From an uncultured Candidatus Saccharibacteria bacterium (GTDB lineage Bacteria > Patescibacteriota > Saccharimonadia > Saccharimonadales > Saccharimonadaceae): a stretch of DNA of 41,260 bases. Below, one piece after another: positions 1 through 19,177 of the stretch; within the stretch, counting starts at the first letter, position 1, and the number at the start of each line of letters is the position of its first letter. Position numbers and translations under genes: made by a program. The stretch is taken from NCBI GenBank assembly GCA_947367565.1, contig CANBEI010000006.1, positions 1 to 41,260 on the forward strand. The letters are read 5' to 3'. The notes beneath the pieces were generated by a model. That model made no database searches. It was not told the origin of the DNA and saw nothing but the letters and a program-made list of their open reading frames with translations.

Positions 1-97
1 AACCATACGCAACAGTAGATGAATTTGCCGTGCGTGACCATCCATAACCATATTCACCAACAACTCGACCCTGACCAGAAGAAACGATAACGACCCC
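1..97 (-). pseudogene. Fragment of a host surface protein with a WSxTAxSSTxAYG motif (reads GVVIVSSGQGRVVGEYGYGWSRTANSSTVAYG, runs off the window)
   Basis: Minus-strand reading frame open from a TAG at 98-100 to the window edge; GYGWSRTANSSTVAYG resembles the YWSST..SSTNAY motif of paralogous bacterial surface proteins; no start codon inside the fragment. Confidence 0.35.
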
Positions 98-255
98 CTA
101 TTAAGTAAAAAGTTAAAAATCACTTATTGATACTTCCATTATACCTGATTTTCAAAAATTATACAATACCAAAATGCAACATTTTTCAGAAAGTCGCTGC
201 GGATGCCCAAGTCGCCATCTGGTCGCCAAATCCTGCCTAAAGATCCAGCACATTC

Positions 256-300
256 AATAAAAATATCCCTAGCCTTGCAGGATCTAGGGATATTTTTATT
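256..300. terminator. Bidirectional intrinsic terminator after the integrase
   Basis: Perfect 17-bp inverted repeat AATAAAAATATCCCTAG (256-272) / CTAGGGATATTTTTATT (284-300) with an 11-nt loop, 12 nt from the integrase stop. Confidence 0.85.
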
Positions 301-311
301 GACACCACACC

Positions 312-1406
312 TTAAACGCGTGCCATAATACGGTCGTGAGTGAGTTGTAGTTTCGGACTGGACACATGAGTATAGAGTTGAGTAGTTTGTAAGTTTTCGT
401 GGCCGAGAAAGTTCGCGATAGACACAATATCAACCCCTTTTTCTAGCAGATAAGTCGCGAACGAATGGCGCATAGTATGCGGATGGATTTTACAGAAGTC
501 AGAGTCACGGCAAGCCTTTTTGAAGAAGTGGCGCACAGATTGGTCGGTCATCCTCTTATCTTCTTGCGTAGAGATGAACAGTGCCGGGCAGTGGTCGACC
601 CGTGTCGCCAGATATTCATTAAGGGCTTTTTCGGCACGTTTAGAGATAAAACATGGCCGCGAGTTTTTACTCTTACCGCTAATCACGAACTTGCGATTTT
701 TAATACTATCGCGGTCTAATTTTATCAATTCCGACACGCGAATACCGCTACTAAATAATACTTCGCAAATCGCTACATTCCGCAGTCTTGCCTGTTCGCA
801 GAGGTTTATTCTCGGCATTTTCACGATGTCTATAAAATCGCGCACTTCCTCGCGTGATAACCATTCTATCTGTCGCTTCTCGTGTTTAGGAAGTCCGATG
901 AAGCCGGGATTTAATACCTCAAAGCCGCGCATATCTAGCCACTGCAATAATTTCCGTAGCGCAGTCAATGCTTTGCGTACCCCATCCTGTCGTATCCACT
1001 GGCAAAGATACTCGCGATATTTTATTACATCGTCTAGTTCAAGGTCTTGGATCGCTTCAATTTTCTTGCCGATAAACCCATGTCGATTTGGCTCGCCGCT
1101 ACAATAGTTGACGGCTAGTAGTTTCATATATCGCCAGTGTTTGACGGTGTTCGCCGCCATGCCAGAGGGGATGACTTCCGCGTTAATATATTCATCAAAA
1201 GCCTTCGCGACCGTCATGCGCTCGGTCTTTGGTTTTGCTACCTGCACCAGCTGAAACTGCGGTGCAACTGTGCCATTATTAGGCATAGACACTTGCATTG
1301 CTTGTATAATCTGCATACATTGAGCAAAAGTATTAGGGTCTATATTGAGGGTTTGCGCTAAAGTGTTTGTTTGAATTGTGGTTGGTTCCGCGACCGCTGT
1401 CGTCAT
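312..1406 (-). CDS. Tyrosine recombinase / phage integrase
   Basis: C-terminal catalytic pattern ...[12 protein letters not shown]...[42 protein letters not shown]-terminal SAM-like domain; SD GAGGAG upstream. Confidence 0.95.
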
Positions 1407-1412
1407 TTTTAC

Positions 1413-1440
1413 TCCTCTATACTTATTACTTTATAGAGGA
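1413..1440 (-). promoter_or_regulatory. Hairpin sequestering the integrase Shine-Dalgarno
   Basis: 9-bp perfect inverted repeat TCCTCTATA/TATAGAGGA; on the minus-strand mRNA its 3' arm contains the AGAGGAG SD next to the integrase ATG at 1406. Confidence 0.6.
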
Positions 1441-1450
1441 AGAACAGAGT

Positions 1451-1852
1451 CTATTTATAGATACCGAGTTTCACCAATTTCTTTGTGCAAATTCTCCCAA
1501 AATAAGCCGGAGGACTCTTGATTGGCTTATTTGTGCGGAGAGTTGTAGCACTCCGAATCGCTTGAATGATGGAATCTCTGCCTATGTGTCGTGCACAGTC
1601 GCAGTAGAATGCCTTGCTTCTCGGTGAGTTAAACACCGCTACTAAGTATTCTGCCGCCTTGTCCACATCTAACTCCGTGGCAACTTCGGGATAGCCGTCA
1701 GCAATATCCGTCTGCGCCGTTGAGTGCGCACAATCCGCCGCGCGTTTTATATGTTCCGCGCGTATCGCGTCCAATCTATTTGTTAATAGTTGATTCATTG
1801 GCAATGAACTTTCCTTTACGGAAAGGCCAATGTCATTGTGCGAATTTGACAT
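1451..1852 (-). CDS. Hypothetical protein in the integrase operon
   Basis: ORF with start chosen at 1852 (MSNSHND...) because AAGGAGG lies just upstream. Confidence 0.6.
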   Translation of the reverse strand: MSNSHNDIGLSVKESSLPMNQLLTNRLDAIRAEHIKRAADCAHSTAQTDIADGYPEVATELDVDKAAEYLVAVFNSPRSKAFYCDCARHIGRDSIIQAIRSATTLRTNKPIKSPPAYFGRICTKKLVKLGIYK

Positions 1853-1878
1853 CTGTTCCTCCTTAATTTTTGCCACGA

Positions 1879-1902
1879 AAAACTCTCCGCTTACAGAGTT
1901 TT
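1879..1902 (-). terminator. Attenuator/terminator-like hairpin in the integrase operon leader
   Basis: 8-bp stem AAAACTCT/AGAGTTTT followed by T on the minus strand, between promoter and SD. Confidence 0.5.
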
Positions 1903-2021
1903 AAGCGACTGATGTTAGAGTATTCTGCTTTCAGCCAAGCGCCGCCGTCAGCATAATACAGTGATAGAGCCTTGCTTATTACACAGTCGGTTCATGACTT
2001 CCGACCATTACCGTTTCAAGC

Positions 2022-2070
2022 AAAAATCCCGTATCTGTTGGCGCACGAACGCGCACTCAGATCGGGATTT
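2022..2070 (-). terminator. Intrinsic terminator in the integrase operon leader
   Basis: Minus strand AAATCCCGATCTG...CAGATaCGGGATTTTTG: 13-bp stem with one bulge, U5 tract. Confidence 0.7.
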
Positions 2071-2109
2071 ACCAATGACTTGTCTAGGGTCACTACAAAT
2101 GTTAGTCTT

Positions 2110-2138
2110 ATTATACTTTACCGCAATGAGAATGTAAA
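2110..2138 (-). promoter_or_regulatory. Sigma70-type promoter driving leftward (integrase) transcription
   Basis: Minus strand TTTACA-N17-TATAAT. Confidence 0.75.
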
Positions 2139-2376
2139 GCACTTTATAGGGCTATTTACTTTCTACCTCCATAATCTCAATGATGGGTGATGGTTTACGC
2201 GCTGCTGCGCGCCGTATTATAAAAGATTAGCCCACCATAGTCATGTTTAAGATTTTTATATTTACCTCTTATCATTACTTATATATTATACTCCTATATC
2301 TGTTGATATGCGAGCATAAGAGATTAAAACTATATGTGAATAACTATAGTTTTACGACTCACTTGCAGAATAATTT

Positions 2377-3723
2377 TTACATATTCTCATATGTTGCCTG
2401 CTTCAATCTTTTGTTATTAACAATCATGCAGACAAATGACATTACTAGCATAGCGATAACGATAGCAAATGTACTGACATTGGTGCCATACCAAATTTCC
2501 TCTGATGTAGTTGCTAAGTTGAATCCAAGTGCTGACTGTATGCCAATAAGTTCTCGATTAAGCACACTAAATGCCGCAACAAGCATGCTCGCCATACAAA
2601 ATGCTAATATAACCGCTCCAATCATTAGTTCCAAGAAATAAAACAAATAGATCATGCGGACTTGCCCAGCAGTTGCCCCAAGACTATAATACAGTGCGAT
2701 GTTTCTCTCGTCTTGATCGACTAGCCTAATACTCGTAAATACTACTACGATTGCTGCAATTAGCCCAAGTGCTATGGATGCTATATTGATGACGAGCTTT
2801 ATGTTCTTTATAATGTATATAGTTTCAGGCGACACTCCTGCTATGATATTTACTGAATATTCTCGATTTGGCAAATTAACATTCATGAATCTACCCTTGC
2901 CGTGCTGAAAGTAGTCATATGCGCTCACATTATCGTCAAAGATTGCAATTAATGATTCGCTTTCTGTTTTTATGCCAGTTAAGTCCTCTAGGGAAGCGCT
3001 TTCGTCCTTTTGCCAATTTTCGCTTTTGCCATTATCTATTACTATCGGTATGCCTTCCGGTGTCGTGATGAACTCAAGAAGTGGATTTAGTATATTGTTA
3101 CTATTGCGCTCTAATTGTTTGAATGAAAGATTCCCGACATGAAAGTTTCCAGAGTTCAGTCCCACGACATAGTATTTTGCGCCGTACGCGTCTGTAAAAG
3201 TCTTGCCGATAATTTCGTTGCGATATTCTTCGTAGTCTTTTTGCTTCTGGGTGGCATTTGTATATTCGGATGGAAAACTTTTACCAAGTAACTGCTCTCC
3301 GAGAAAAGTTGATACTAGCACCGGCGCAGCATCGGCAGGAACTTTATTCATATCAACTTCTACTGCATTTTCTACTAATTCTTTTGGTAAAATTACACTC
3401 CCAAATACACCATATTTCTCTGCATCGCCAAGCACCTTGCCGCCGTACGTCTCGATATCTTCTTGCATCGCTTGATGCGTTACTTGTGGCATAGTATCCT
3501 CTACTACCATGCCTTCCATACTATTCGTTGCTTCAATTATTACTTTACCGTCCGTTATCCGGCTTGCGAGTTTCATATAAGCATTCTCCATGCCCTGAAA
3601 CCATAAATTAATTGTTAAAATAAGCCCAAAAATTACACCCATAACTGCCATAATAATCAAGTTGCGCTTAAAATATATTCTGATGTTTTTTGCGCTAATA
3701 TGTAAAATATCTTTTATTCGCAT
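2377..3723 (-). CDS. FtsX-like ABC transporter permease
   Basis: N-terminal TM, large extracellular domain, three C-terminal TM segments; adjacent to a second permease and an ATPase. Confidence 0.8.
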   Translation of the reverse strand: MRIKDILHISAKNIRIYFKRNLIIMAVMGVIFGLILTINLWFQGMENAYMKLASRITDGKVIIEATNSMEGMVVEDTMPQVTHQAMQEDIETYGGKVLGDAEKYGVFGSVILPKELVENAVEVDMNKVPADAAPVLVSTFLGEQLLGKSFPSEYTNATQKQKDYEEYRNEIIGKTFTDAYGAKYYVVGLNSGNFHVGNLSFKQLERNSNNILNPLLEFITTPEGIPIVIDNGKSENWQKDESASLEDLTGIKTESESLIAIFDDNVSAYDYFQHGKGRFMNVNLPNREYSVNIIAGVSPETIYIIKNIKLVINIASIALGLIAAIVVVFTSIRLVDQDERNIALYYSLGATAGQVRMIYLFYFLELMIGAVILAFCMASMLVAAFSVLNRELIGIQSALGFNLATTSEEIWYGTNVSTFAIVIAMLVMSFVCMIVNNKRLKQATYENM

Positions 3724-3724
3724 A

Positions 3725-4618
3725 TTAATCTCCTTTCAGTTTTTGTGCTATCTTTTTACTTGAGAATTGGTCAAGACAAAGTAAGAATGAAACTGGTGCT
3801 GCCAAAAACATACATAATATTACTTCGACGCACTGTAGATTAACTCCAATTAATATCGGCCAAAAGTTCGGAGCGCTAGGATATATTGTGGCAAGTTGTA
3901 TTAGTAACTGCTTCCAACACACTGCCGTGGCTATTCCGGCTAGCACAAGTGCTAAAGCTATTGCAAAAATTGCCGCCCATACGCAAAGTTCCAATAAATA
4001 AGCAAAGTAAATTAGCAAAAGTTGCCCCTTGGATGCTCCGATTGAACGATATAATACAAAAGTTTTCGTGCTACTTGCGATTAAGTGCGCCATAGTGAAG
4101 GCCAAAATAAATGCCGACACCGCCACTAACACTAGACTAATCGGACGAATAAAGTCTTTGTTTTTATCACGAAAATACTTATACACACCAATCTGATTAC
4201 TAAACAATTCAACTATTTGATAATCGTCGGAATTGTAGTGTAGGTCTTTTTTATCTGATTTACTATAATACTCATAGGCTTTATCTAAGCTAGAGAACTT
4301 TGCTATGATGACGGATTCTGGTATTTCTTCACCAATTTCCGCTTTTTGTTCGTCATTTAGAGTAGCAACCACTCCGCCGAATTTCTGGATGCGATCTGAA
4401 ACTAAAGAAGCCTTGTCATAGCTACTTGCTAGATATACTTCTCCGTTTGTTGCATCTTTTGCGTATTTTAGGGTAGTATTTTCTAAACCTTGGAATATCA
4501 ATAGCGCCGCTAACAATACACCAAACAATATACCGATAGTTACTATTGTTGCTCGGCTACGCGTCTTATAAACAGTAAACTCTCGGTGCGACAGTCTAAA
4601 TAGTTCTTTGAACGTCAT
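3725..4618 (-). CDS. FtsX-like ABC transporter permease (second subunit)
   Basis: Same topology; FVLYRSIGASKGQLLLIYF resembles the FtsX/MacB permease motif; overlaps the ATPase gene. Confidence 0.8.
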   Translation of the reverse strand: MTFKELFRLSHREFTVYKTRSRATIVTIGILFGVLLAALLIFQGLENTTLKYAKDATNGEVYLASSYDKASLVSDRIQKFGGVVATLNDEQKAEIGEEIPESVIIAKFSSLDKAYEYYSKSDKKDLHYNSDDYQIVELFSNQIGVYKYFRDKNKDFIRPISLVLVAVSAFILAFTMAHLIASSTKTFVLYRSIGASKGQLLLIYFAYLLELCVWAAIFAIALALVLAGIATAVCWKQLLIQLATIYPSAPNFWPILIGVNLQCVEVILCMFLAAPVSFLLCLDQFSSKKIAQKLKGD

Positions 4619-5321
4619 TTGTTGCTTTCTGGTTATCCTGCATCGCTGCCGTATTCGATAGTTCGCTTGTAACTATACCGCCACGCACCGTTACGACTTG
4701 TGTTGCGAACTCCAGCACATCGCGACTATGGCTAGCAATGATAATTGTTACCCCCATTTGCTGACGGACATAATTCAAAATCTCCAAAACCGTTTTCGCA
4801 TTATCTTCATCGAGATTACTAGTTGGCTCGTCTGCTAGAATAATTTTAGGACTCAATAGTAATGCTCGTGCGATACAAGCTCGCTCTGCTTGTCCACCCG
4901 ACACTTCTTTGGGTAGATATTTCAAATTATCGGATATACCTAGCATCTGCGCCAGCTGTTCAGCTCTCGTTTTTCTTTCCGCTTCAGGCATACCAGCAAA
5001 AACTCCCGGTAAGGTAATGTTTTCCAGTAACGTGAATTGCGGCTGAAGATATGATCCCTGAAAAATAATTCCAATCTCATGACGATAAAAATTCGTGCGA
5101 TCTTTTGCCGTCAAATTGCCGACATCTTTTCCGTCGACGATGATCTGCCCACTAGTCGGCATCTCCAATCCACCGATTAGATTAAGCAGTGTAGATTTTC
5201 CGGCACCACTTTCGCCACGCAAGACCGTAAAAAAACCGGCGGAGATATTTAGGTTTACGTCCTGAAAGACAACCTTCTCGCCGTAGTGTTTTTTGATGTT
5301 TTGTAATTGAATGATTTCCAT
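4596..5321 (-). CDS. MacB/LolD-like ABC transporter ATP-binding protein
   Basis: Walker A GESGAGKST, signature SGGQAERACIARAL, Walker B IILADEPTSNLD. Confidence 0.95.
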   Translation of the reverse strand: MEIIQLQNIKKHYGEKVVFQDVNLNISAGFFTVLRGESGAGKSTLLNLIGGLEMPTSGQIIVDGKDVGNLTAKDRTNFYRHEIGIIFQGSYLQPQFTLLENITLPGVFAGMPEAERKTRAEQLAQMLGISDNLKYLPKEVSGGQAERACIARALLLSPKIILADEPTSNLDEDNAKTVLEILNYVRQQMGVTIIIASHSRDVLEFATQVVTVRGGIVTSELSNTAAMQDNQKATNDVQRTI

Positions 5322-5347
5322 ATTCTTGCCTTTTTATTTTGGGGTTG

Positions 5348-5369
5348 GGGTGCTCACTACGGAGCACCC
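5348..5369 (-). promoter_or_regulatory. Intercistronic hairpin between secreted-protein gene and transporter genes
   Basis: 8-bp stem GGGTGCTC/GAGCACCC with a 6-nt loop. Confidence 0.5.
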
Positions 5370-5465
5370 ACTGTTTTTTGAGAGAGTTGAATTGATGCGC
5401 GCCAGAACAAAATGTTACAGATATTGCTTAATCTATATTCAGTTGTCTACGAAATAGCGCTTACA

Positions 5466-5942
5466 TCAGTAGGCCCATGCCTCCACTCGTGTAAAACCGG
5501 TTGCCTGTGGCGCTGTGGCATTTTCCAAGATTATCCGATACTCCCCGGACTGGTCTGTTGACCACGTTAAAAGGCTCGGCTGACCGTTGACATACCCGCC
5601 ATTTCTCGGGTCGTATTTGCGCTCAGAAGTCTGATTGCAGGTATAACGATTTCCGACATTCTGCCAAACACCTAAAAATCCTTTGCGCTGAAGTACAACC
5701 TGATATGTTCCGTTTGACGGAGATGTCGCTACGCAGTAGAACTTGATCCCACTCGTATTGATGTTGGTACCGGGGCTCATCTGCCCTAAGTCGATTACTT
5801 TTCTGCCGGTACTCTGCATCCATGTAAAATCATTGATGTTCTTTGCGAATGCCGTTGTTGCCATTACAGTGCACAACATTAATACAGCCATTATGGCTGT
5901 AAACAGGCGCTTGGCGCCTGTTTTTCTTTTTGTAGCTGTCAT
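5466..5942 (-). CDS. Small secreted protein with Sec signal peptide, ABC-transporter partner
   Basis: Start at 5942 (MTATKRKTGAKRLFTAIMAVLMLCTVMATTAFAKN) has SD AAGGAGG at 5958-5952; signal peptide ending AFA-K; mature domain looks beta-rich. Confidence 0.8.
   Translation of the reverse strand: MTATKRKTGAKRLFTAIMAVLMLCTVMATTAFAKNINDFTWMQSTGRKVIDLGQMSPGTNINTSGIKFYCVATSPSNGTYQVVLQRKGFLGVWQNVGNRYTCNQTSERKYDPRNGGYVNGQPSLLTWSTDQSGEYRIILENATAPQATGFTRVEAWAY
5883..5923. repeat. Two abutting perfect palindromes within the signal-peptide codons
   Basis: TACAGCCAT-T-ATGGCTGTA (5883-5901) and AAACAGGCGC-TTG-GCGCCTGTTT (5901-5923). Confidence 0.85.
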
Positions 5943-5999
5943 ATAGGAAAACCTCCTTGCTAAAGGGCACGCAATATCAATCACTCTCTCGTAAAGATC

Positions 6000-6049
6000 G
6001 TGCGTCACCGCACATATCGAATTATACTCGAATATTCGATATAAATCAA
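6000..6049 (-). promoter_or_regulatory. Cargo operon promoter with nested palindromic operator and 5'-terminal hairpin
   Basis: TTGATT-N17-TATAAT on the minus strand; palindrome TCGAATATTCGA (6028-6039) and IR ATATCGAAT/ATTCGATAT (6014-6022/6034-6042); GTGCG-GTGA-CGCAC hairpin (6013-6000) at the predicted 5' end. Confidence 0.65.
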
Positions 6050-6068
6050 TGGCATTTTTATTTATCCA

Positions 6069-7313
6069 TTAGACCTTCTTCACATCCTCCAGTCGCATCG
6101 CTGCCCAAATCTGCCCACGTGCACCTAACACCACTCTATCCTGTCCTTCTTCTACATCTTGTACAACATAGTAAACATCGTCATATTGTTTAAGGTGCCG
6201 TCCGTCATAATCTACTAGACGCAGTGGCCGGACATTCTCGCCCTTATGAAAAATCAGTGACTTGTTGGGACTATTGCTTGGTTGTGTTGCTGGCTTGGTG
6301 GCAGTGTTTGGAGTCGCCGTATTTTGCGGTTTATTCGCCGTCTGCGCTGGCTTGGTGGTCGTAGTGGTATTCTGGGTTAGCATGGCTTTCGGGCAGGCAT
6401 AGCGCGCTCCTACTGCGTCTAGGTTGAGATAGTGCGTGCCGGTGGCGAGTGGTTGCCAGTTCGCGTCATTGACGAGGTTTTGCACTGCGTTTTTTACTAG
6501 ACCTGTATGTCCATATTGCCCGGATTTATAGGAGAAAATCGCGCCGTCCATCTTCGTGCATTCCACCCAGCCGAGTTTCTGGATCAGGTAGTCCACCATC
6601 TTATCGCCGTTGCACGGTCCGTAGTCGGGGTGTGGTGCATAGTTCATTCGGATACCAGTCGCGAGATACCACGCGTATTTGGAACATTGCCAGCCTTTGC
6701 CATTATCTTTGTCGCCATCGGGAAGAATACGGTTTATCGGCAGAGTTTCCGACCCTTGCCCGACTTCTATTGCTTCGGCTCCCGCCACGATTTCCGCAAC
6801 TTCTTCCGCGCTTGGTTCGGCAGCCGTTTCAGTCTGCTCCTCATCCGTGGTGTGCTTCGGAGTAATGGCTTCGGCAAAGGCGCGGAAGTTCTCCTCTACA
6901 TCCTGTGCGATACCTTGCCAATCAATTCCATTCGGGTCTATCTCTAGTTCTATCGGTTCAGTATGGAGTGTATCGATGAAGTTCTTAAAGTTATTGTAGG
7001 CTTTGCTTGCATAGCCAGCACTAGCTTTTGCAGTCAGTACCGCCACTCCGCCGACACTAAATATGTCAGCCAGTTTAGACACATCTGCGCCCAGCCTAGC
7101 GCAATACCAGTCTATCAGGTTGATGGCGATAGTAATCGCACCAAGAAATCCCAGTCGCAGGATAACTTTCAGCAAATCTTCCCAGAACCTCCGCCAACTC
7201 CACTCGCGCGTTTTAGAATAAGCCACATTAAACGCACCGCTAAGCAGCCACGCGACATAAGTGACTCCAATAATCGCCGCTCCGATATAAACTGTAATAA
7301 GTTGCTCTATCAT
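6069..7313 (-). CDS. Membrane-anchored (holin-like N-terminus) CHAP endolysin
   Basis: N-terminal TM helices; GWQCSKYAWYLATG...GQYGHTGLVKN typical of CHAP; C-terminal wall-binding-like GENVRPLRLVDYDGRHL...VVLGARGQIWAAM. Confidence 0.75.
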   Translation of the reverse strand: MIEQLITVYIGAAIIGVTYVAWLLSGAFNVAYSKTREWSWRRFWEDLLKVILRLGFLGAITIAINLIDWYCARLGADVSKLADIFSVGGVAVLTAKASAGYASKAYNNFKNFIDTLHTEPIELEIDPNGIDWQGIAQDVEENFRAFAEAITPKHTTDEEQTETAAEPSAEEVAEIVAGAEAIEVGQGSETLPINRILPDGDKDNGKGWQCSKYAWYLATGIRMNYAPHPDYGPCNGDKMVDYLIQKLGWVECTKMDGAIFSYKSGQYGHTGLVKNAVQNLVNDANWQPLATGTHYLNLDAVGARYACPKAMLTQNTTTTTKPAQTANKPQNTATPNTATKPATQPSNSPNKSLIFHKGENVRPLRLVDYDGRHLKQYDDVYYVVQDVEEGQDRVVLGARGQIWAAMRLEDVKKV

Positions 7314-7370
7314 ATTTTTCTCCTTTTGTGGGAACGAAATCCCGATTTATTTAACATTTTGTTCAATAAC

Positions 7371-7766
7371 TCATACTTTCTTCATCGCTACCTCTGGATT
7401 CTTCATATAAAACTCCAAGTCGTTATGTTCGGTATAAAGTTTGCTAATGTCTATGCGGTGCGTTAGCGCCCAGACCGCGAATGGTCGGCTAGCATACGAG
7501 TTTCCGCCGAGATCTAAGAAATAATGCTTCGCGATATTCATAATTTCTTCGGTATTGTCGCTATCCGTCCGAATCGCCGTCAGCAGGTCATTGCGTTCAC
7601 TAATCAAGGCTTCGCATGCTTGTCGTTGTTCTACTCGCGCTAATCGCTCCATAATCTCTTGATTTTCCGCCTTGCTTCGCGTGCCGACTTTCGCGACCGC
7701 CACTGTGCCGGCCGCCGTAATCGCCGCACAAATAATCGTTGCTAACCACCTTTCTGCGCCTTGCAC
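7371..7766 (-). CDS. Small TM/coiled-coil phage protein (holin/lysis accessory candidate)
   Basis: N-terminal TM followed by coiled coil, between portal and endolysin. Confidence 0.5.
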   Translation of the reverse strand: MQGAERWLATIICAAITAAGTVAVAKVGTRSKAENQEIMERLARVEQRQACEALISERNDLLTAIRTDSDNTEEIMNIAKHYFLDLGGNSYASRPFAVWALTHRIDISKLYTEHNDLEFYMKNPEVAMKKV

Positions 7767-9145
7767 TCCTCGCCGCCCGTCGTGGCTTCGCCACTCTCAC
7801 CTGCGTCGCTCGGAATCGTCCGCACAAGTGCGTCCGTTTCACTCGCTTTCCTCGGTGCTGCACTCGCCGCGCGTTCCGCGGGGCTTCGTCGGTCGGCTTC
7901 GTCGCGACCCCCGACAACCTGTTTCGCGCTTTTTGTCGTTTCTTTTTTCATCTCCAACCTCCGGAAACTCTCCGGCAGTCGTAAGGCTTCCACCGCGCTC
8001 TCGTGCGTGAATCCAGCTTCTATCATAGTTTTCAGGGCTTCGGCTTGGAGTTTCCGCGTATCGGTCAGCATCGGCAGTTCATAGTTAAATGATAGTGCGA
8101 ACCCCATACCGCCAAAAATGCGATTAAACTCATGTGTCAGTCGACTATAAATCTTAACCAACTTCGGATAGACTACGCGCCTTGCGAACACATAGTCAGC
8201 CACTTCCGCGCTAGCATAATTACTGTTGGAGAGGTGCCCCTTAATTTCTTCCGGCACTCCAAAGATGGTGTCTATTTTATGGTTGGCTTGATTATAGACA
8301 GCTTCCAACGTCAGCTCTTTGTTGGTTTGGGCGAACGGTGTCCATTCAATCGCTGCCGATTCCGGCTTGCCGTCTATACTGGATGTCGGGCGGTGCACAT
8401 ACATAATGTTGCCAGCCTTTCTCGCACCCCGGAATTGTTCCTGCATCCTATCTACGATGTCGTTATAGATCGCGACACTCGGTGCAGTGATAGTAAATTG
8501 ACCAGCCGGCACTGCGCCGTTGCGGAACTGCGCGTTGTGGTATTCGGCGATAAAATCGTCCGTGGTCGCCCACTTCTTGCTCGCGATACTAGGCGAATAG
8601 CCGTCATTGATACGATACGGATTGACTGCCAGTGAGAGGGTGACTACTTCCTGCTCGCTATATGTCTTTCCGCCCATGCGATAGGTTGATACCCCATCTA
8701 CGACTGATTCCGCCACATTTTCCATAAAGGTCAGCCCGGCAAAATTATCAAGGTTTGCCCCAGTCGCGAGTTCCGTGCCGTTCCGGTGCCAGACCAAGAG
8801 ATAGACTTTCGGATGGACGAGTAGCATTGTGGCTAGGGTTTCCATGAAATCCGTGCCGCTCATTTCACGATTCGGCCGTGCTAGGATTTGTAGTAGTCGT
8901 GGCGCAGGGTTGATTTCTTCACCCCTGCTATTAATCGCTATGGGGTTAATCTCAGCAATCGCTTCCGCAATCCGTGCAATGTTGGGGTAAGTATTGTCGT
9001 AGCTGCCATTACGCAAGGCAAAACTGCCGCCGTATTGGTGAATGGCATTTTCTATGAATCTATCTTCGGGGTCGTGTTCCTGTATTTGATTGGTTGCTCC
9101 GATTTCACTTTTCCCAAATATCTTTTGTCGTAATTTCTCAAACAT
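7742..9145 (-). CDS. Phage portal protein (HK97-type)
   Basis: N-terminal PNIARIAEAIAEINPIAI...LLQILARPNREMSGTDFMETLATMLL...VHPKVYLLVWHRNG; central GVPEEIKGHLSNSNYASAE. Confidence 0.85.
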   Translation of the reverse strand: MFEKLRQKIFGKSEIGATNQIQEHDPEDRFIENAIHQYGGSFALRNGSYDNTYPNIARIAEAIAEINPIAINSRGEEINPAPRLLQILARPNREMSGTDFMETLATMLLVHPKVYLLVWHRNGTELATGANLDNFAGLTFMENVAESVVDGVSTYRMGGKTYSEQEVVTLSLAVNPYRINDGYSPSIASKKWATTDDFIAEYHNAQFRNGAVPAGQFTITAPSVAIYNDIVDRMQEQFRGARKAGNIMYVHRPTSSIDGKPESAAIEWTPFAQTNKELTLEAVYNQANHKIDTIFGVPEEIKGHLSNSNYASAEVADYVFARRVVYPKLVKIYSRLTHEFNRIFGGMGFALSFNYELPMLTDTRKLQAEALKTMIEAGFTHESAVEALRLPESFRRLEMKKETTKSAKQVVGGRDEADRRSPAERAASAAPRKASETDALVRTIPSDAGESGEATTGGEECKAQKGG

Positions 9146-9156
9146 TTTTACTCCTT

Positions 9157-11088
9157 TTATGATTCCAGTTCCGCTCCGTGAATACTGGTGCTCGGTAGGC
9201 TAGGGTCGATTTTGTCCGCGTGGAAAGCTGCCAGCGAGAAATACACCATATAGCCATCCCATGCAAAATAAGGTTGCGTAGTAGTGTTCGTCATAGCAGT
9301 TGAGCCGTTAGCGGCTGTGTTCATGCAGGCGACGCGGTTGGAAATTGTGGCATCATAGCTATCGGACGCGTAGTTGGCTGGGGTGCGTGTCGGGACTTTC
9401 TTAGTTGTAGTATCCACAGTCGTTTTGAAGTTTGGATTATAGCCAATTTTGTTATAGGTATGCGAAGTCATAGCAGTGCGCCAGTTATCCTCGGCGCAGA
9501 ATGAATTATTTCCGTATTCTATCTCGCCATATTCGCCCATAAAGTAATACTCGCCGTGTACTTGTTCATCTACGGCTACGCGTGCCATTTTACGCGTCGA
9601 TACAGTATTGGTGTAGCCCAGTTGTGTCATCGTCGGTAACCCCACCCAGTCGCGCACTATACCGACAGCACAGGTGTTGTTAATAATACGATTGGCATCG
9701 CCAGAAGGATAAAGCATTTCGGTCTTGGCAAGATTATTACGCAGCAGGGTAGAAATGTAGCGGAGATAGGCATAAACACTACTAGAAGTAGATGAAAACA
9801 CATCATAATCATGTTGCGGTTTAGCCCACTGACCATTAGACTGTGCCGGAGTAGTAAGGTAGGCGCGTGCGTTAGACTGTCCGTAATTAACGCGGCCATA
9901 TTGTCTTTCAAAAGCATTCGGATTACTGGCTTCGGGATAGTCATAATAGTAGCAATATGGTTTAAACATATACTGGCGGCGCAAAATAACAATAGGTGCA
10001 AGGTGCGAAAGATCGCCGTCCGGGTCGGCAATTAGACCATAGCCGGTGCCGGTGGTTAGGAGTGGGTCATTTACTGGACTGTAATATATACTGCTATTGC
10101 CGGGGTCAACCGTCATATCGGGTATTAAGCCGTTCAATAGTCCGCGCTCATTTAATGCGTTTTGGACGGCGATACTCACTTGCACCTGTCCAGCATAAGT
10201 CCACGGTTGCCATTCTTCCGTGCCGTATTTAGGGTCAAGCATCACTTTAGCCAGTGCTTGGCGCACTTGGCAGATAGGGTTTGGTAATAGTTTGAATAGC
10301 TGAGTGGCGCGTTCCGTAAAGAACATATCGCTATATCTTGGGTCATAATAGTCCGCTTCTTCGCCATTGCCGCCTTGCTCCGTTGGCAAGCAATCTGCTA
10401 GCTCGGTGCGCAAATGGTCTATCTTAACCATATATGTAATAACAGATATAAAATCATACACGGCTTTTTCTCGATTGGACTGAAAAGAACTTTTCCATGC
10501 CGTATCGCCACAAAAAACGCAGTTTGGGTTATTAGACATGATACCGTTACGATCACTGTCAGCATATTCGCCGCCAGTGCTACGCGGATGTCGCCAAAAA
10601 CTGCCAAAATTAATTCCAATCTTGGAATAATCATTCATGGCGATTTGTGTATAGTTAGTAACGGTGCCGGATTCACTACAAAGTGTAAACGGATAGCGAC
10701 TGGCTGGTAGGTCGTAGCCGTAGAAGTATTGGGCTAGTGTGAGCCAACATCGATAATAATAAGCCGGCACGCGTTGACGGTTGTAACTGTTCATAGCGGA
10801 TTCGGGGTAGCGCGGATAGCTCATATCGTAAGCCGTAATGCCATATGCTTTGACATGACTCGCAATATCGTCTGCTCCAAACATGCCGAGGCAGTCTGTG
10901 CGATTCACCTCGCTGCGTTCGTAGTCATTTTGCTTCTTGAGAAAGAACAAAACCCGCGCGAGTTCCTCAATAAAGTTTTCCGCCACATTGACAATATCCG
11001 GCATACCATAGGTATCAAAATCTTCGTTACTTGGCGGAGTATAGCCATAGCTCCAATTGCTCGCCGTAGTTGTAAATAGATCTGCCAT
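9157..11088 (-). CDS. Large uncharacterised phage structural protein (643 aa)
   Basis: Long ORF within the structural module; rich in Tyr/Asn/Thr; no family recognised. Confidence 0.7.
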   Translation of the reverse strand: MADLFTTTASNWSYGYTPPSNEDFDTYGMPDIVNVAENFIEELARVLFFLKKQNDYERSEVNRTDCLGMFGADDIASHVKAYGITAYDMSYPRYPESAMNSYNRQRVPAYYYRCWLTLAQYFYGYDLPASRYPFTLCSESGTVTNYTQIAMNDYSKIGINFGSFWRHPRSTGGEYADSDRNGIMSNNPNCVFCGDTAWKSSFQSNREKAVYDFISVITYMVKIDHLRTELADCLPTEQGGNGEEADYYDPRYSDMFFTERATQLFKLLPNPICQVRQALAKVMLDPKYGTEEWQPWTYAGQVQVSIAVQNALNERGLLNGLIPDMTVDPGNSSIYYSPVNDPLLTTGTGYGLIADPDGDLSHLAPIVILRRQYMFKPYCYYYDYPEASNPNAFERQYGRVNYGQSNARAYLTTPAQSNGQWAKPQHDYDVFSSTSSSVYAYLRYISTLLRNNLAKTEMLYPSGDANRIINNTCAVGIVRDWVGLPTMTQLGYTNTVSTRKMARVAVDEQVHGEYYFMGEYGEIEYGNNSFCAEDNWRTAMTSHTYNKIGYNPNFKTTVDTTTKKVPTRTPANYASDSYDATISNRVACMNTAANGSTAMTNTTTQPYFAWDGYMVYFSLAAFHADKIDPSLPSTSIHGAELES

Positions 11089-11099
11089 TGCTGTTTTTC

Positions 11100-11915
11100 C
11101 TAGTTCATAACCTGCGTTAAGACCGAGTTGATATTAGTGAGCATAGCTGTAAGGTTAGACGCATTAGCAATCGCGCGTTTCCGTGTATCCATGAGGATGT
11201 CATAGAGGGCTTTCTGATTCCGGAATACCAGTGCTAGCGCTTCAGATGTTAATATATCCTCATCCACTCCCTCTACGGTTTCTGCGAGCGACGGTGCGCC
11301 ACTCATCAATCCATTTTCCGTATCAATACTGCCGGTCGTAATCTCTACGCGCCATCCAGCATAAGTGCCAATTGTTTCAAGTTGCTGTTTAAGCGGTTCA
11401 AGGTCTATCTTTTCCGTTGCGCCTTTGGCTTCTTCGGCTAGACTTTTAGCACTTTCGGCGATGGCCACCACTCCGTTTGCTGCATTCTTGGCTTCTTCCG
11501 CTTTACTCTCTGCCGTTTTCGCCGCAGATGTTGCTTCGGCTACTTTACTTACTGCTTCAGCCGCCTTGTTCTCCGCACTCTGTGCATCGCGGCTCGCCGA
11601 CCCAGCCGAGGCTAAGGCAGATTTGGCGGTTGCGTTCGCGCCCTCGGCTTTTGCCTGCGCGTCGTCAATTTTCTCATCAAACTCATCATGCAAATCGCTA
11701 TTCAGCAAACCAAGCGCGTCAGATACCGCCTTTGCAGTCGGTATTTTCTCGCTTTCATCTACGGTATCAGTATGGGTTTGCGCCGCTATCTGTTGTTTTA
11801 GCCTGCCCCAAGTAAGTAACCGATTTTCCTGATTCGCAATAATCGGCGCACCGTCCTCGTCCGCTAATGGCATCCGGTCGCCAGATGGTAGTTCACTGAA
11901 TTTGATTGCTTCCAT
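11100..11915 (-). CDS. Phage coiled-coil protein, tail fibre/needle candidate
   Basis: Long Ala-rich heptad repeats (KAEGANATAKSALASAGSASRDAQSAENKAAEAVSKVAEATSAAKTAESKAEEAKNAA). Confidence 0.6.
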   Translation of the reverse strand: MEAIKFSELPSGDRMPLADEDGAPIIANQENRLLTWGRLKQQIAAQTHTDTVDESEKIPTAKAVSDALGLLNSDLHDEFDEKIDDAQAKAEGANATAKSALASAGSASRDAQSAENKAAEAVSKVAEATSAAKTAESKAEEAKNAANGVVAIAESAKSLAEEAKGATEKIDLEPLKQQLETIGTYAGWRVEITTGSIDTENGLMSGAPSLAETVEGVDEDILTSEALALVFRNQKALYDILMDTRKRAIANASNLTAMLTNINSVLTQVMN

Positions 11916-11935
11916 TAGTTAAAATTCCTTTCCAT

Positions 11936-12382
11936 TTACACTGTTTCCTTAAATTGCTCCAACATAAACATCCGCCCAGTTTCCGTGACAAGGAACTTTG
12001 CTCGGTCGCGTTCCAAGCAGAACTTCGGTCGCTCATCGGAATAAATTGCTAGTGAACAGTTGAAAGTTAGATGCTCCACTTCGCCAGTATCGTAATTTTT
12101 GCCAATACTCACTCCGTCAATACTGTAATTCCTGCCTTTCCAGCGCACTGCCGAGCCAATAATGTCTTGTGGGTTTGCCACATCATCAAAGTCATTGGGG
12201 TGCGCATGAATTGTCAGATCGCTAGCCGTGCGCCGCAGTTGCGAAGCGCGTTTTAGCCCGGCTTTGAACTTCATCAAGGCCTTGATTTTGCGTTGCCCTT
12301 TGACGGTAGTGCCGTCCACAGGGAGAAAATCTATTTCTTCTTCGCCGTTTAGAAATGCCGTGAATACTGTATTTTTCCGCAT
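11936..12382 (-). CDS. Head-tail connector/virion protein, hypothetical
   Basis: Position in the structural operon only. Confidence 0.5.
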   Translation of the reverse strand: MRKNTVFTAFLNGEEEIDFLPVDGTTVKGQRKIKALMKFKAGLKRASQLRRTASDLTIHAHPNDFDDVANPQDIIGSAVRWKGRNYSIDGVSIGKNYDTGEVEHLTFNCSLAIYSDERPKFCLERDRAKFLVTETGRMFMLEQFKETV

Positions 12383-12391
12383 ATTCTCACC

Positions 12392-12823
12392 TCAAAGCAC
12401 ATAATCTGTCATATCGTCAGTCCGTCCGGCACGCATTTCTCCAGTGCAAGCGGTAAACCTCTTTAACAGGTCTTCATTCTGCCGCACATATTCGGCCAGT
12501 GGAGTATGCGCATTTTTATCGTATTCAATCTTAAAATCTTCTACGGTCTTAGCGACAATTCCACGCGCCTGCGCTTCCGCCTGTTCGTCCGACAAGACAG
12601 CCATCATGCGCGCAATCAGCAGTTTAATCAAAGTCAAATCTTCCGGCGCATCTATTTCCGATATATTACGACTTAACAGATTGTGGAGTCGCGCTTCGGC
12701 TACTTCGCGGAACAGGTCAAAGTTCTGCGCTTCGCGATCCAGCAGTTCTCGCCCAATAAAGGCTTCACATTCGGTCTTGGTTAAACTTATCATTTCCGCT
12801 TGCTCTTGCTTAGTTCTTGACAT
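12392..12823 (-). CDS. Head-tail adaptor-like protein
   Basis: Small, charged helical protein immediately downstream of the capsid gene. Confidence 0.5.
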   Translation of the reverse strand: MSRTKQEQAEMISLTKTECEAFIGRELLDREAQNFDLFREVAEARLHNLLSRNISEIDAPEDLTLIKLLIARMMAVLSDEQAEAQARGIVAKTVEDFKIEYDKNAHTPLAEYVRQNEDLLKRFTACTGEMRAGRTDDMTDYVL

Positions 12824-12848
12824 TATCCGCTCACACTCGCTTGTCTTG

Positions 12849-12986
12849 GGGATAGGCAGAGCCTATCCCATAGCCTGCGCTCGTTGCTCGCTAATCGCTC
12901 CAATGCTCCGTATCGGTTGCGCGTTCCGCGCGCCCATCACTTCGCTATTGTCGCTTTGTGGGGCGGCTACCTGCGGTATCCGCCCC
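12849..12986. repeat. GC-rich palindromic island
   Basis: GGGATAGGC-AGA-GCCTATCCC (12849-12869) and GGGGCGG...CCGCCCC (12960-12986). Confidence 0.75.
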
Positions 12987-13001
12987 AACCCTATCTGCTA
13001 T

Positions 13002-14942
13002 CTACTCGCCGTCTCCGCTTTCGTCATTCTTATTTCCGTCAGTAGTAGAAGCACTGGCATAACCGGCACAGACCTTGCGGCCAAAGAGTGAGCCAGCCAC
13101 CGGCTTTTCGTGAAGCAGGACATCTTGGTTGTAATCGTTATCAAAGGCGGAACGAAGCATGTCGCGACCATTCGGGAACAAATACTTGCCGTCATTAAAG
13201 CCGATTAAGTCCATACCGCAGTCGGTCATGAAATCAAACTCAAAGATTTTCGCGGTCAAGAGTTGCGCGAAGTTGCTACCCGGCGCGAAGACATAGCGGC
13301 CGTCATTGTCCTTTTCTAGCATTAGTCCAGAGATGAAACCCTCTGGCGCGACAAGGATTTTCTCACTACGACCCTTGAGAGCTGAGAGAGTTTTGACAGC
13401 CTTATCATAGGCATTGTCGCCAGCGGTATTGGTGATTTTAGTCGCCACGGCTTTCGCAAACTTAGTTGCGCTATCCGTGCCAGAAGTGGCGGATTTGTTA
13501 ATATCGCCAAGCATACTCCATAGGCCACGCGTGCCGTCAAACATTCGCAGGTCTTTCGCGCCCTCGCTAGGTTCGCCGCGTCCGTCGCTGACGATAATCG
13601 CGCGAACGATTTCGTTGTAGAGTAGATCGGCCAGCAGTTCACCACGCAGAATGGTGAGTTCGCCGGTGGTGTCGTCAATCAGGTCTTGCAAGTCAATCGG
13701 CATCTTGGCGAAGGCAATTTTTGCCTTATAGTCACGGCGAACAGTTTCAAAACCGACATTATCCTTTTTCTCGCCTTTCTTATGCCCAGCACCGCGACCA
13801 GTCGCATAGTAGCCATATACATTACCTTGCAAAAGTTTAGCAGATTTCATGTGTGCGAGAATACCGCGGTCGCTCGTCCAGACTTTGAAGAAGGTCTGTT
13901 CTAGTTGAGAAGGCAAAATCTCGTCCCCGGTGATACCTTTTTCAGCCATCTTTTCCGCCCAAGCCTTAATGACGGCGGTATTAGATTTGCCGTAATTTTC
14001 CGCAATAAACTTGGCGAAGTCGGCATTAGCTTCTTCGGTGGCGAGATAGGCTTTCGCATTGCTGGTCACGGTGATTTTCTGGGTGGGCGTCTGCACCTGC
14101 GCCGCAGCAATCCGTTTTTGATTAGTGGTTTCGTTCATGGGTGTTCCTTTCGTGGGATTAATTTGTGGTGATTCATTGTTGGTTTCTGGTGCATTTTCCG
14201 GTGTCGGGGTTTCAGCCGGAGTAGTTTCTGTATTCTTAATTTCTTCGTCTTGCATTGTCTTTTCTCCTTGTTGATTAATAATTGGCTCAGAGTTCATTTC
14301 TAGTGGATTATTTACGACTGGTGGCGCAGCGCGACTGTTCGGATTTGCGGACTTGATGTCTAAGACGAACGCATCGCGATTACAGCCACGCGTGACAAGT
14401 GATACTTCTAGGATTTCTCCGTCTGTATAAGTCTTGGTGTCCGGCGCATATGCACCACTGCGCCAGCCGATAGAGAACGCATTGTGTAAATGTCCCTCAT
14501 CTATCAAAGTCATGAGGTCTTGGGCATATTTGCGTTTAGAGATGCCGACAGTGAAGACTAGTTTGCCATTCTCATATACGGCGCTTCGCACCGACCCAAT
14601 GACTTTATCTACCTCCCAGCCGTTATGATCGGTGAGCAGGGGAATATCTATGGCAGTATTTTTACCCTCCGCGAGGTCAGCCACGCGCACCAGTCCACCA
14701 TTCTTAGTCGGGAGATAAAAAGTTGAGATTTCTACATGTTCGTGCGCCCGGTCTTCGCTATTGTCGCTTGCAACAAAAACAATCGTCCGCTCCGCGGTCG
14801 TGTCTGTTTCTGCGCTTTTATTTTCATCGGTATTTAGCACCGCAACCGACTTAATTTCTGCCAGTTCCAGCGCCGTATAATGTAAACTATTAGCATTATC
14901 TTCCATGCTTCCGATTATTGGAATACATAAGATAGAGCGCAA
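13002..14942 (-). CDS. Prohead protease-major capsid protein fusion (HK97 fold)
   Basis: N-terminal protease pattern HNAFSIGW...GEILEVSLVTRGCNRDAFV; C-terminal phage capsid (ITVTSNAKAYLATEE...LVAPEGFISGLMLEKDNDGRYVFAPG...). Confidence 0.85.
   Translation of the reverse strand: MRSILCIPIIGSMEDNANSLHYTALELAEIKSVAVLNTDENKSAETDTTAERTIVFVASDNSEDRAHEHVEISTFYLPTKNGGLVRVADLAEGKNTAIDIPLLTDHNGWEVDKVIGSVRSAVYENGKLVFTVGISKRKYAQDLMTLIDEGHLHNAFSIGWRSGAYAPDTKTYTDGEILEVSLVTRGCNRDAFVLDIKSANPNSRAAPPVVNNPLEMNSEPIINQQGEKTMQDEEIKNTETTPAETPTPENAPETNNESPQINPTKGTPMNETTNQKRIAAAQVQTPTQKITVTSNAKAYLATEEANADFAKFIAENYGKSNTAVIKAWAEKMAEKGITGDEILPSQLEQTFFKVWTSDRGILAHMKSAKLLQGNVYGYYATGRGAGHKKGEKKDNVGFETVRRDYKAKIAFAKMPIDLQDLIDDTTGELTILRGELLADLLYNEIVRAIIVSDGRGEPSEGAKDLRMFDGTRGLWSMLGDINKSATSGTDSATKFAKAVATKITNTAGDNAYDKAVKTLSALKGRSEKILVAPEGFISGLMLEKDNDGRYVFAPGSNFAQLLTAKIFEFDFMTDCGMDLIGFNDGKYLFPNGRDMLRSAFDNDYNQDVLLHEKPVAGSLFGRKVCAGYASASTTDGNKNDESGDGE
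14138..14270 (-). promoter_or_regulatory. Two internal in-frame SD+ATG sites in the protease-capsid ORF
   Basis: AAGGAG-8 nt-ATG (MQDEE, ATG at 14255) and AAAGGAA-ATG (MNETTNQ, ATG at 14138). Confidence 0.65.
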
Positions 14943-15003
14943 ATGATTTCAAAAATATGTTATAATAATCTAAATATAAGTTTTTTAACAGGAAGGGCAG
15001 AAG

Positions 15004-15330
15004 ATGTCAGAGCATCATTACCATCTCATCATCAATGACTTGCCGGAAGAATATACCGAAAAATATCCGGATTTTACAAGGTTAATTACAAACAACACTG
15101 ACTACATCAGTGTTAATTTCACGGAACCGCATACGATATCTCTTTGCGGTATTTCCTGTGATAATTATGGCGGGAAAGTTAGTCTTGAAGATGTTGTCGA
15201 GTTTCTTATTACGCAAGTTGCCGGTAGAGCATACGGACACCCTGCGCCTGAAACAATGGAATTCTTACAGTATTGTGAATTAAAAGAAAAACCCGACTGT
15301 GAAGACTATTTGCGAATCAGACAACAGTAA
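15004..15330 (+). CDS. Hypothetical 108-aa protein, a plus-strand gene inside the prophage
   Basis: TGTTATAAT promoter-like element upstream, SD GGAAGGG before ATG. Confidence 0.65.
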   Translation: MSEHHYHLIINDLPEEYTEKYPDFTRLITNNTDYISVNFTEPHTISLCGISCDNYGGKVSLEDVVEFLITQVAGRAYGHPAPETMEFLQYCELKEKPDCEDYLRIRQQ

Positions 15331-15338
15331 GCATAAAA

Positions 15339-15362
15339 AATGACCCCATTACAGGGGTCATT
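15339..15362 (-). terminator. Intrinsic terminator for minus-strand NYN transcription
   Basis: 9-bp stem AATGACCCC/GGGGTCATT; on the minus strand followed by U6. Confidence 0.8.
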
Positions 15363-15368
15363 CCAGTA

Positions 15369-15411
15369 TTGACTTTTGGTAATATGTTTGCTATAATGGG
15401 AGCATATTACC
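15369..15411 (+). promoter_or_regulatory. Consensus promoter embedded in a 9-bp inverted repeat (operator)
   Basis: TTGACT-N17-TATAAT (15369-15397); IR GGTAATATG (15378-15386) / CATATTACC (15403-15411). Confidence 0.8.
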
Positions 15412-15461
15412 ACGCAGGGATGCACTGAACGGAGAAATACCTAAGGCGAACCTGCTTTTTT
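15404..15461 (+). ncRNA. Predicted ~57-nt small RNA ending in an intrinsic terminator
   Basis: Starts just after the consensus promoter; GCAGG (15414-15418) pairs with CCTGC (15451-15455), followed by T6; no convincing ORF. Confidence 0.55.
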
Positions 15462-15468
15462 GTTTGAC

Positions 15469-16002
15469 CTATTTTTGGTTCTTCTTATAAAGAATCTTAT
15501 TCTTGACCGCCTTTTCATCCAGATAGACACGGTAAGTATCGGCTGTGCGCTTCTTATATAGTGATGAGAGCTTTGAAGTGTTCGGAACGAGCAACTTCTC
15601 AAATTTTTCTTTCTTAATTAAATAATCCACCATGCGCCAATAATCGCCGTCGCCAGACACAAGGATGACTTTATCAAAATCTTCTTGATCGGCAATTTCA
15701 CGCATAATTTCAAATACGATGTCTGTATCAACATTGCCTTTCTTGTGGCTAAGTGAAGCGCTGGCATGTTCACGGAAAATCACAACATAGCCATAATTTT
15801 GTAAAGCTTTGTACAAATCCTGATTCTTTGGGTCATATGCCCCCATGAAATAATAAGCTTGCTTTACCTTATATCTTTCTGCAAGGAACACTCGAAATCG
15901 TTTCAAATCAATCGTCCAAGCCGGTTCCGCACTTGTTGTGCCAAGTCGTAGGTTTTGACCGTCAATAAATGCGCGATTATTCATTTCTTTATTTTCTGTC
16001 AT
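15469..16002 (-). CDS. NYN-domain (LabA/DUF88-like, PIN-fold) nuclease
   Basis: RAFIDGQNL...KVKQAYYFMGAYDP...KGNVDTDIVFEIMREIADQEDFDKVILVSGDGDYWRMVDYL; start set at MTENK (16002) with SD GGAGT and extended -10 TGGTATAAT upstream. Confidence 0.9.
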   Translation of the reverse strand: MTENKEMNNRAFIDGQNLRLGTTSAEPAWTIDLKRFRVFLAERYKVKQAYYFMGAYDPKNQDLYKALQNYGYVVIFREHASASLSHKKGNVDTDIVFEIMREIADQEDFDKVILVSGDGDYWRMVDYLIKKEKFEKLLVPNTSKLSSLYKKRTADTYRVYLDEKAVKNKILYKKNQK

Positions 16003-16140
16003 TTTTACTCCAATCAATATATTCTTTTTATTATACCACCTCACCCCTATTTCTTCCAGTGCGATCGCTCCGCTTTCTAGGGCGCGCCGAGGCTTGCTCC
16101 CGGATTTTTCTGCTACTATGCCTTATCGCGACTGCGCCCC

Positions 16141-16283
16141 TGACTTTCTCGCGGCGCGCTCTATTTCAGCGACAATGAAGTCAATACTCCGCGCCACTCG
16201 CCAGTCAGCGAACTGCGTTCGCTTGGCGCGCCCAGTCGCTTCGCGAGTATCGCGCTCTGGATGTGTCGCTTCTCTCCACATCC
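16141..16283. repeat. GC-rich palindromic island
   Basis: TGACTT/AAGTCA, GCGCCA/TGGCGC enclosing AGCGAA-CTGCG-TTCGCT, and GGATGTG-N11-CACATCC. Confidence 0.7.
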
Positions 16284-16293
16284 GCCGCGCACC

Positions 16294-17472: not shown

Positions 17473-17647
17473 TCTACCCCTGTTTTATTTAACACTTTGT
17501 TAAGTATTTATTTGGGCGCATCGGCTGCGCCGCCGGGCTATTCGCTACATTGGCCGCAAATTTTCCGCCCCACTAAAAGTTCATAATCTGATCGCGGCCA
17601 ATTTCGCTTCTATCCCTTGCGCAAAAGCACTAGATATTAAGCACCGC

Positions 17648-18307: not shown

Positions 18308-18759
18308 AAAATCTCACCCTGCTCTTTAGTCAAAACTACTTCCACGCGCGGATTACTTTTGCAGACTCCCATTAGTTTGACCTGTATACCGCGCACGGTT
18401 TCTATGCCGTCATCAGGGATAACTTCAGCCTTAACGAGTGCGTCTAGAACAGAAGTAATCTGATTATCAAGATCGCGCCGCTTCATGTCTGGCTCATAAA
18501 TTCTAAACTCTAGCGAACATGGCGACCATTCCTCCGCCTTAAACGCGCCACGCGTCTGTAATCGGAATTGTGCTACCATATCGCTTTCGTTGCGCTTCGC
18601 CATATCGTTGCTCGTGATAAATCTATGTCCAGTGTGCCGGTTATATCGAATAACTTTGTTATTTTTCTTACTGACGACCGCGCCTTTATATTCAATTTGT
18701 AATTGCTGCAACATTTTAGTTTCTCCGTTAATTTCAATTCTTCTGGTTCTGATAATCAT
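18295..18759 (-). CDS. RusA-like Holliday junction resolvase
   Basis: RIYEPDMKRRDLDNQITSVLDALVKAEVIPDDGIETVRGIQVK, the D-x2-N...DAL...DD pattern of RusA. Confidence 0.8.
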   Translation of the reverse strand: MIIRTRRIEINGETKMLQQLQIEYKGAVVSKKNNKVIRYNRHTGHRFITSNDMAKRNESDMVAQFRLQTRGAFKAEEWSPCSLEFRIYEPDMKRRDLDNQITSVLDALVKAEVIPDDGIETVRGIQVKLMGVCKSNPRVEVVLTKEQGEILCLP

Positions 18760-18766
18760 GATTTTT

Positions 18767-19090: not shown

Positions 19091-19177
19091 AACCTCTCCT
19101 TAAATAAATCGCAAACCCACCGTGTCGCTACCAGATGAGGTAAAATAGTAAAAATATACAAAAGTATTAAATCTTAG

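Follow-up and report, generated by a model that had tools for sequence, protein, structure and literature searches.

Introduction

RNA-based phage immunity is known from the C4 antisense RNA of phages P1 and P7, and in phage lambda the RNA element sib, which lies beyond the attachment (att) site, is separated from int by integration, a form of retroregulation. In satellite phage P4, immunity is exerted by the CI RNA (seqA/seqC), which derives from a leader and acts as an antisense RNA on the leader of the phage-propagation operon (PMC4825925). The mycobacteriophage BPs and its relatives display integration-dependent immunity, with the phage attachment site attP inside a protein repressor gene (PMC4557955), and the antisense RNA STnc6030 of prophage BTP1 blocks superinfection by the same phage and not by a relative (PMC7067206). 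Here we analyse a stretch of 41,260 nucleotides (nt) from an uncultured Candidatus Saccharibacteria bacterium (assembly GCA_947367565.1, contig CANBEI010000006.1), called the window throughout, which carries a prophage with two inverted copies of a 17-nt repeat. We give a probability of roughly 60% to the reading that this repeat belongs to an antisense RNA pair, in which the leader RNA of an excisionase-like/integrase (xis-int) operon silences the lytic operon and confers phage-specific immunity.

Such a system would work like P4 CI RNA immunity combined with the logic of integration-dependent immunity, and would differ in layout. As in P4, a short leader-derived RNA is predicted from the sequence to be antisense to an operon leader, here by RNAduplex to that of a lytic or replication operon, so that immunity would be mediated by RNA and not by protein. 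Unlike the CI RNA, which comes from the transcript that it controls, the RNA considered here is the xis-int leader and its target is a separate operon, with att between that operon and its presumed promoter; in P4 the RNA gene is flanked, within its own transcript, by the two targets seqA and seqC, whereas there is one long target here on a different operon, and no sequence relationship is known. As in BPs, integration at attP would change the regulatory state. In contrast to BPs, where integration truncates the repressor open reading frame (ORF) that contains attP, att is non-coding here and has int on one side and the leftward operon on the other, in the gap between this operon and its presumed promoter, and there is no recognised repressor. 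STnc6030 exceeds 700 nt and is directed as antisense against structural genes of its own locus, whereas the present RNA has about 50-85 nt and is encoded away from its target. Unlike C4 and sib, it links a different pair of operons and matches no such family in Rfam, whose covariance models returned only tRNAs at the gathering threshold in the window, L045 and L118, and no phage regulatory RNA. Since defining features of both the P4 and the BPs systems are lacking, as is an Rfam match, the locus is best regarded as putative RNA-based phage immunity of its own type rather than as a member of those families. In the open-licence literature searched, no mechanism of lysogeny regulation was found for phages of Saccharibacteria or Patescibacteria, and an earlier report elsewhere is possible.

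A leader box and its inverted copy beyond att

The repeat, ACCCTAGACAAGTCATT, was pointed out in an earlier note on this DNA, and both copies are exact (Table 1). No third copy occurs in the window at up to three mismatches, or in the whole genome at up to two, and genome-wide matches with three mismatches are at chance level (control 8); in 100 shuffles the mean was 0.05 matches and two were never reached. The extended similarity claimed around the copies is likewise present (30 nt, 83%). Both copies lie inside one prophage, in agreement with their proposed link to prophage ends, and the further copies looked for in relatives were found in G268, which has both in the same places. Exact 14-16-mer matches in G050 and in the viral contigs L015-L019, which lack the layout and the extended similarity, were treated as unrelated.

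What is conserved among related phages is the predicted RNA complementarity between the two copies of one phage, a point absent from the earlier note. The first 18-40 nt of the leader (the box) have an inverted, never a direct, copy beyond att (the anti-box) in 11 independent Saccharibacteria elements (the window, L045, G000:C2, G225C17, G357C1, G391C37, G352C2, G274C21, G273C7, G391C1 and L118), with G284C22 as an imperfect twelfth. L045, which is in the attP configuration, has a different box with a perfect 25-nt inverted copy about 250 bp past int; a second prophage of the same genome, G000:C2, matches at 24/24 positions; and L118, fetched with a G274 protein homolog after the rule had been framed, matches at 25/25. 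Alignment scores of cognate inverted pairs (22-28) do not overlap those of own-direct and 110 non-cognate pairings (at most 17), and the diagonal of the matrix of leaders against second copies stands at 21-25.5 versus at most 16. When folded as RNA, cognate pairs reach -42 to -60 kcal/mol and non-cognate pairs -13 to -42, the cognate partner being the strongest in every row and column; the window's anti-box gives -53 to -56 with its own leader versus -16 to -30 with nine non-cognate ones. Boxes vary between phages and both copies change together, for example between L118 and G274C21. The complementarity, its co-variation, the positions of the copies and the order of int, promoter and att are direct results of sequence comparison.

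No second copy was seen in the majority of the GGCTCCGC leader group, nor in L022, G267, G255 and G000C52. Since the contigs of these elements extend at most about 14 kb beyond the leader on its upstream side, they are taken as truncated and not as counterexamples; in the single long one, G284C22, a copy is present. Scans of viral contigs with the integrase and with the G357 xis homolog gave no matches.

Table 1. Features of the window, with positions counted from its first letter.
Feature	Position	Strand	Basis or remark
Prophage	74..20337, ends approximate	.	G268:C13 homology begins at window 72, ends at 20338; flanks differ
Left att core arm GGTCGTTATCGT	84..95	-	Prophage junction
Promoter after int, pointing across att; proposed lytic promoter	138..166	-	TTGTAT-17-TATAAT
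Tyrosine integrase	312..1406	-	PF00589, E 1.8e-33; phrog_1
133-aa protein, excisionase-position gene, no known family	1451..1852	-	Homologs adjoin int in related elements
Leader RNA, predicted, about 83 nt: 5' box and intrinsic terminator	2022..2104	-	Fold z = -4.3, terminator stem and U-run
Leader terminator	2022..2070	-	5' arm ATCCCGAT is part of the complementary region
Copy 1, leader-box core	2074..2090	-	Exact match
Promoter of the leader/xis-like/int operon	2110..2138	-	TTTACA-17-TATAAT, 11/12 consensus
Leftward phage operon(s): 106-aa first gene, RusA, terminase, head protease, portal	7371..20000	-	
boxA-like TTAACAATT downstream of the anti-box	20182..20190	-	
Anti-box, includes copy 2; its RNA is complementary to the leader	20239..20281	-	RNAduplex
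Copy 2	20252..20268	+	Exact match
Hairpin T1 between att and anti-box, terminator-like	20297..20323	-	ACCACC/GGTGGT becomes ACCGCC/GGCGGT in L040; other elements have T-run terminators there
Right att core arm GGTCGTTATCGT	20320..20331	+	Prophage junction

The leader RNA and the nature of the repeat

Copy 1 corresponds to about +15 to +31 of the predicted transcript, followed immediately by an intrinsic terminator and then by the 133-amino-acid (133-aa) excisionase-like gene and the integrase gene. The leader promoter stands at the same position in 12/12 elements, and the same leader plan recurs in all related elements, every leader having a predicted promoter and, at a distance of 50-85 nt, a predicted strong terminator; these signals, like the boxA motif discussed below, are consensus predictions made with controls. 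The L022 homolog of the 133-aa protein (55% identical) is preceded by the same promoter, CCCTAGACAAGTCAT and a different terminator, with no hairpin stem. More distant homologs keep the promoter, a box of about 25 nt and the terminator, and their box sequences are unrelated.

The earlier note had both copies fold into a hairpin with an invariant 11-nt loop, possibly recognised by a protein. A 7-bp 5' hairpin is indeed predicted for copy 1, but its stem is not conserved: 2/5 pairs are broken in the leader copy of L022 (ATTGG, loop, TCATA) and one pair in the right-end copy of L040. The loop of copy 2 has 12 nt, and neither stem nor loop is kept across phages, unrelated box sequences occupying the same two places elsewhere. 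On account of the broken stems and the unrelated boxes, a conserved RNA hairpin bound by protein was rejected. Of the terminator-like sequence described next to each copy, that of copy 1 is borne out, since it lies just upstream of a strong intrinsic terminator, which agrees with the suggested termination or antitermination setting; copy 2 has none on the same strand. The recurrence of TAGACAAG at 20338 falls on the right junction of the prophage or outside it, where G268, G392 and L014 differ; it is coincidental, and as a third copy it was ruled out by the flank sequence. The repeat is probably functional and may act as RNA, as had been proposed.

The repeat sets in at +1 to +5 of the predicted strong-promoter transcript and extends into the terminator's 5' arm. 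Selection for RNA-RNA pairing would be expected to produce a duplex that starts within 5 nt of the predicted start and ends in a terminator arm, for which a protein-binding site hardly accounts. One rival explanation invokes recognition of DNA: Xis, Int or a repressor of the phage would bind an identical site both near attP and at the promoter of xis-int, and protein and site would co-evolve. Multifunctional excisionases such as P2 Cox have comparable paired sites at the att core and a promoter, and one of the two sites here does lie 52-68 bp from the att core, the other at the xis-int promoter. We nevertheless consider this improbable because, in addition to the boundaries just described, there are only two copies, always inverted, 18-40 nt long and without a common dyad; they are 18-32 kb apart in prophages, and the box differs widely even for xis homologs that are 62% identical (L118/G274). 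The integrase or excisionase arm sites suggested in the earlier note also seem unlikely, given two inverted copies that are hypervariable between phages with homologous int. Arm-type sites occur in several copies flanking the att core, whereas here a single inverted copy lies near att, about 50 bp inside the right core, and the other is about 2 kb in from the left end, past the integrase and 133-aa genes and downstream of the xis-int promoter. An att direct repeat was rejected as well, the copies being inverted and the att core lying elsewhere.

Some further features of these leaders were observed. A second conserved element, possibly another regulatory RNA, precedes the 133-aa-like gene (window 1853-1920, minus strand; L026-L032, L067-L085) and reads ACGCTC ... 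GAGCGgGAGTTTTTG..GC.AAAATT. The first codons of 133-aa-like genes (e.g., L030, L068, L072) contain a long hairpin with CAATGACATTG-like repeats around arms of the AGATTTCT/AGAAATCT type. In L056 (G255:C17) the whole leader, with promoter, box and terminator, is tandemly duplicated (12300-12389 and 12450-12539, 150 bp apart).

The post-int promoter, boxA and the effect of integration

A forward sigma70-like promoter is predicted at or just after the int stop codon in 12/12 elements. Nine of these score at least 10/12 and two score 9/12, values reached by 5% and 26% of shuffled windows, respectively; that of L118 (TTGACA-17-TATAAT) overlaps the int stop, and L022 has TTGCAA-17-TATAAT in the same place as the window's. 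The attP-type contigs (L045, G357C1, G391C37, G352C2, G274C21, L118) share one order on the same strand: int, promoter, att (often tRNA-like), T-run terminator, anti-box and phage genes. In the window, G000:C2, G225, G273, G391C1 and G284, 18-32 kb separate the post-int promoter from the anti-box and phage genes, which lie at the other end, so that it faces host DNA.

Downstream of the anti-box, TTAACAATT occurs in 9/11 elements, against a background of 19 per 693,510 positions. This motif, which is also that of the E. coli rrn boxA, recurs in genomes of the same genus about 90 nt ahead of the 16S gene (GTTTAACAATTTAG); these genomes were used because 16S leaders were not found in the window's own genome. 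Placed as it is after the anti-box, boxA points to transcription of the lytic leader in the sense that yields anti-box RNA, and expression of the lytic operon may depend on antitermination.

In attP-type contigs, box and anti-box are about 1.7 kb apart on one strand and become separated by integration. An effect in cis could therefore be imagined, in which a read-through xis-int transcript of the circular genome folds its 3' anti-box back on its own 5' leader, like the sib-type retroregulation of int. In the window, int is followed by a 19-bp inverted repeat (254-302) that is perfect and T-rich on its 3' side, and elsewhere the anti-box comes after T-run terminators, so that one continuous transcript is not the simplest reading; we hold this explanation to be very improbable.

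Between int and anti-box, G274C21 and L118 contain a complete tRNA-like sequence on the opposite strand. Only these two have a short second complement of the leader box after the post-int promoter, which differs between them in step with the boxes.

A proposed antisense switch and its alternatives

From these arrangements we infer the expression of both RNAs, the direction of control and the immunity phenotype. The promoter at 2138-2110 would yield a short terminated leader RNA, the first 40 nt or so of which match, as complement, the leader with which the leftward lytic/structural operon begins. In a circular genome, infecting or excised, the promoter at 166-138 would read across attP into the anti-box, boxA and the lytic genes. 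Because this promoter lies at the other prophage end, beyond att, it would reach the leftward operon only in the circular (attP) form, and integration itself would disconnect it from the lytic genes. A resident prophage would keep producing leader RNA, which would pair with the anti-box beside boxA and block or end lytic transcription, and immunity against an incoming identical phage would be specific to the box. No recognisable repressor was found among the prophage proteins tested. A more far-reaching version is a protein-free lysogeny switch, in which a barcode of about 25-40 nt in the xis-int leader RNA pairs with a nut-like (boxA) lytic leader and defines the immunity group, while integration cuts the lytic promoter from the lytic genes; it is tentative, and we give it slightly less than even odds.

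Because the leader terminator has its 5' arm within the stretch covered by the anti-box, termination would compete with pairing, and lytic RNA could release xis/int expression. Control may accordingly be imagined to run in the reverse direction, the lytic-leader RNA pairing in trans with the 5' arm of the terminator and causing read-through, so that Int and Xis would be made only while the genome is circular and be off after integration. The leader terminators are strong, and the complementary region reaches their 5' arm in the duplexes, which makes pairing and termination mutually exclusive. Taken alone, this explanation fails to account for the fast diversification of the boxes, a pattern of the immunity type, and the duplex would affect the lytic RNA too; we regard it as unlikely. 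The two directions, silencing of the lytic leader by the xis-int leader and opening of the xis-int terminator by lytic RNA, are compatible and may coexist.

Several observations weigh against silencing of the lytic operon by the leader RNA. BoxA is absent in G273C7 and G274C21, and in the window itself the post-int promoter scores 9/12, its -35 element being weak. On its way to the anti-box, transcription from the proposed lytic promoter would meet T1, so that read-through or antitermination must be assumed. The prophages G273C7 and G391C1 have a promoter-like site, of host or phage origin, 117-240 nt upstream of copy 2. A repressor could also go unrecognised among the many ORFs that match no known family. 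Finally, the mismatches are not enriched in G:U pairs (9/30), which leaves some formal room for identity maintained at the DNA level.

The prophage, its insertion target and other contents

The prophage measures about 20.3 kb (20.26 kb), its ends being set by comparison with the same-genus prophage G268:C13 and the viral contigs L014 and L040; divergence at the right end begins at one identical base in L014, L033 and L040. The att core GGTCGTTATCGT has two copies in the whole genome, only at the two prophage junctions and in inverted orientation. A 21-nt inverted repeat, AAAAGTTAAAAATCACTTATT (81%; window 108-128, plus strand, and 20078-20098, minus strand), flanks att and provides candidate integrase arm sites.

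Prophages of the window's type are apparently inserted in genes of Fib_succ_major-like surface domains, at codons of a GY.W motif (window 1-83 and 20338 onwards; L020/L021, L014, L033, L040), the target being different gene copies of this domain in different genomes. The short prophage flanks have no Pfam match of their own; a paralogous segment in G268 aligns at 41% with a Pfam-confirmed domain protein. The phage contig L045 encodes its own Fib_succ_major-domain protein (6781-7581, plus strand; PF09603, E 1.2e-9).

Searches of Pfam and PHROGs with the 133-aa protein gave no match. An ABC transporter (an ATPase and two FtsX-like permeases; window 2377-5321, minus strand) appears to be cargo inside the prophage. 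A candidate small RNA (window 15366-15463, plus strand), with a TTGACT-TATAAT promoter, an RNA of about 60 nt and a terminator GCAGG..CCTGC-TTTTTT at its end, lies beside the sole rightward prophage gene (15004-15330).

Implications for Saccharibacteria phages

If this antisense pairing is true, the immunity groups of Saccharibacteria phages could be read from sequence alone. One base-paired RNA segment would link the control of int, the control of the lytic genes and integration, without a repressor protein. The simple rule that the leader box recurs inverted beyond att would also serve for finding and delimiting such prophages.
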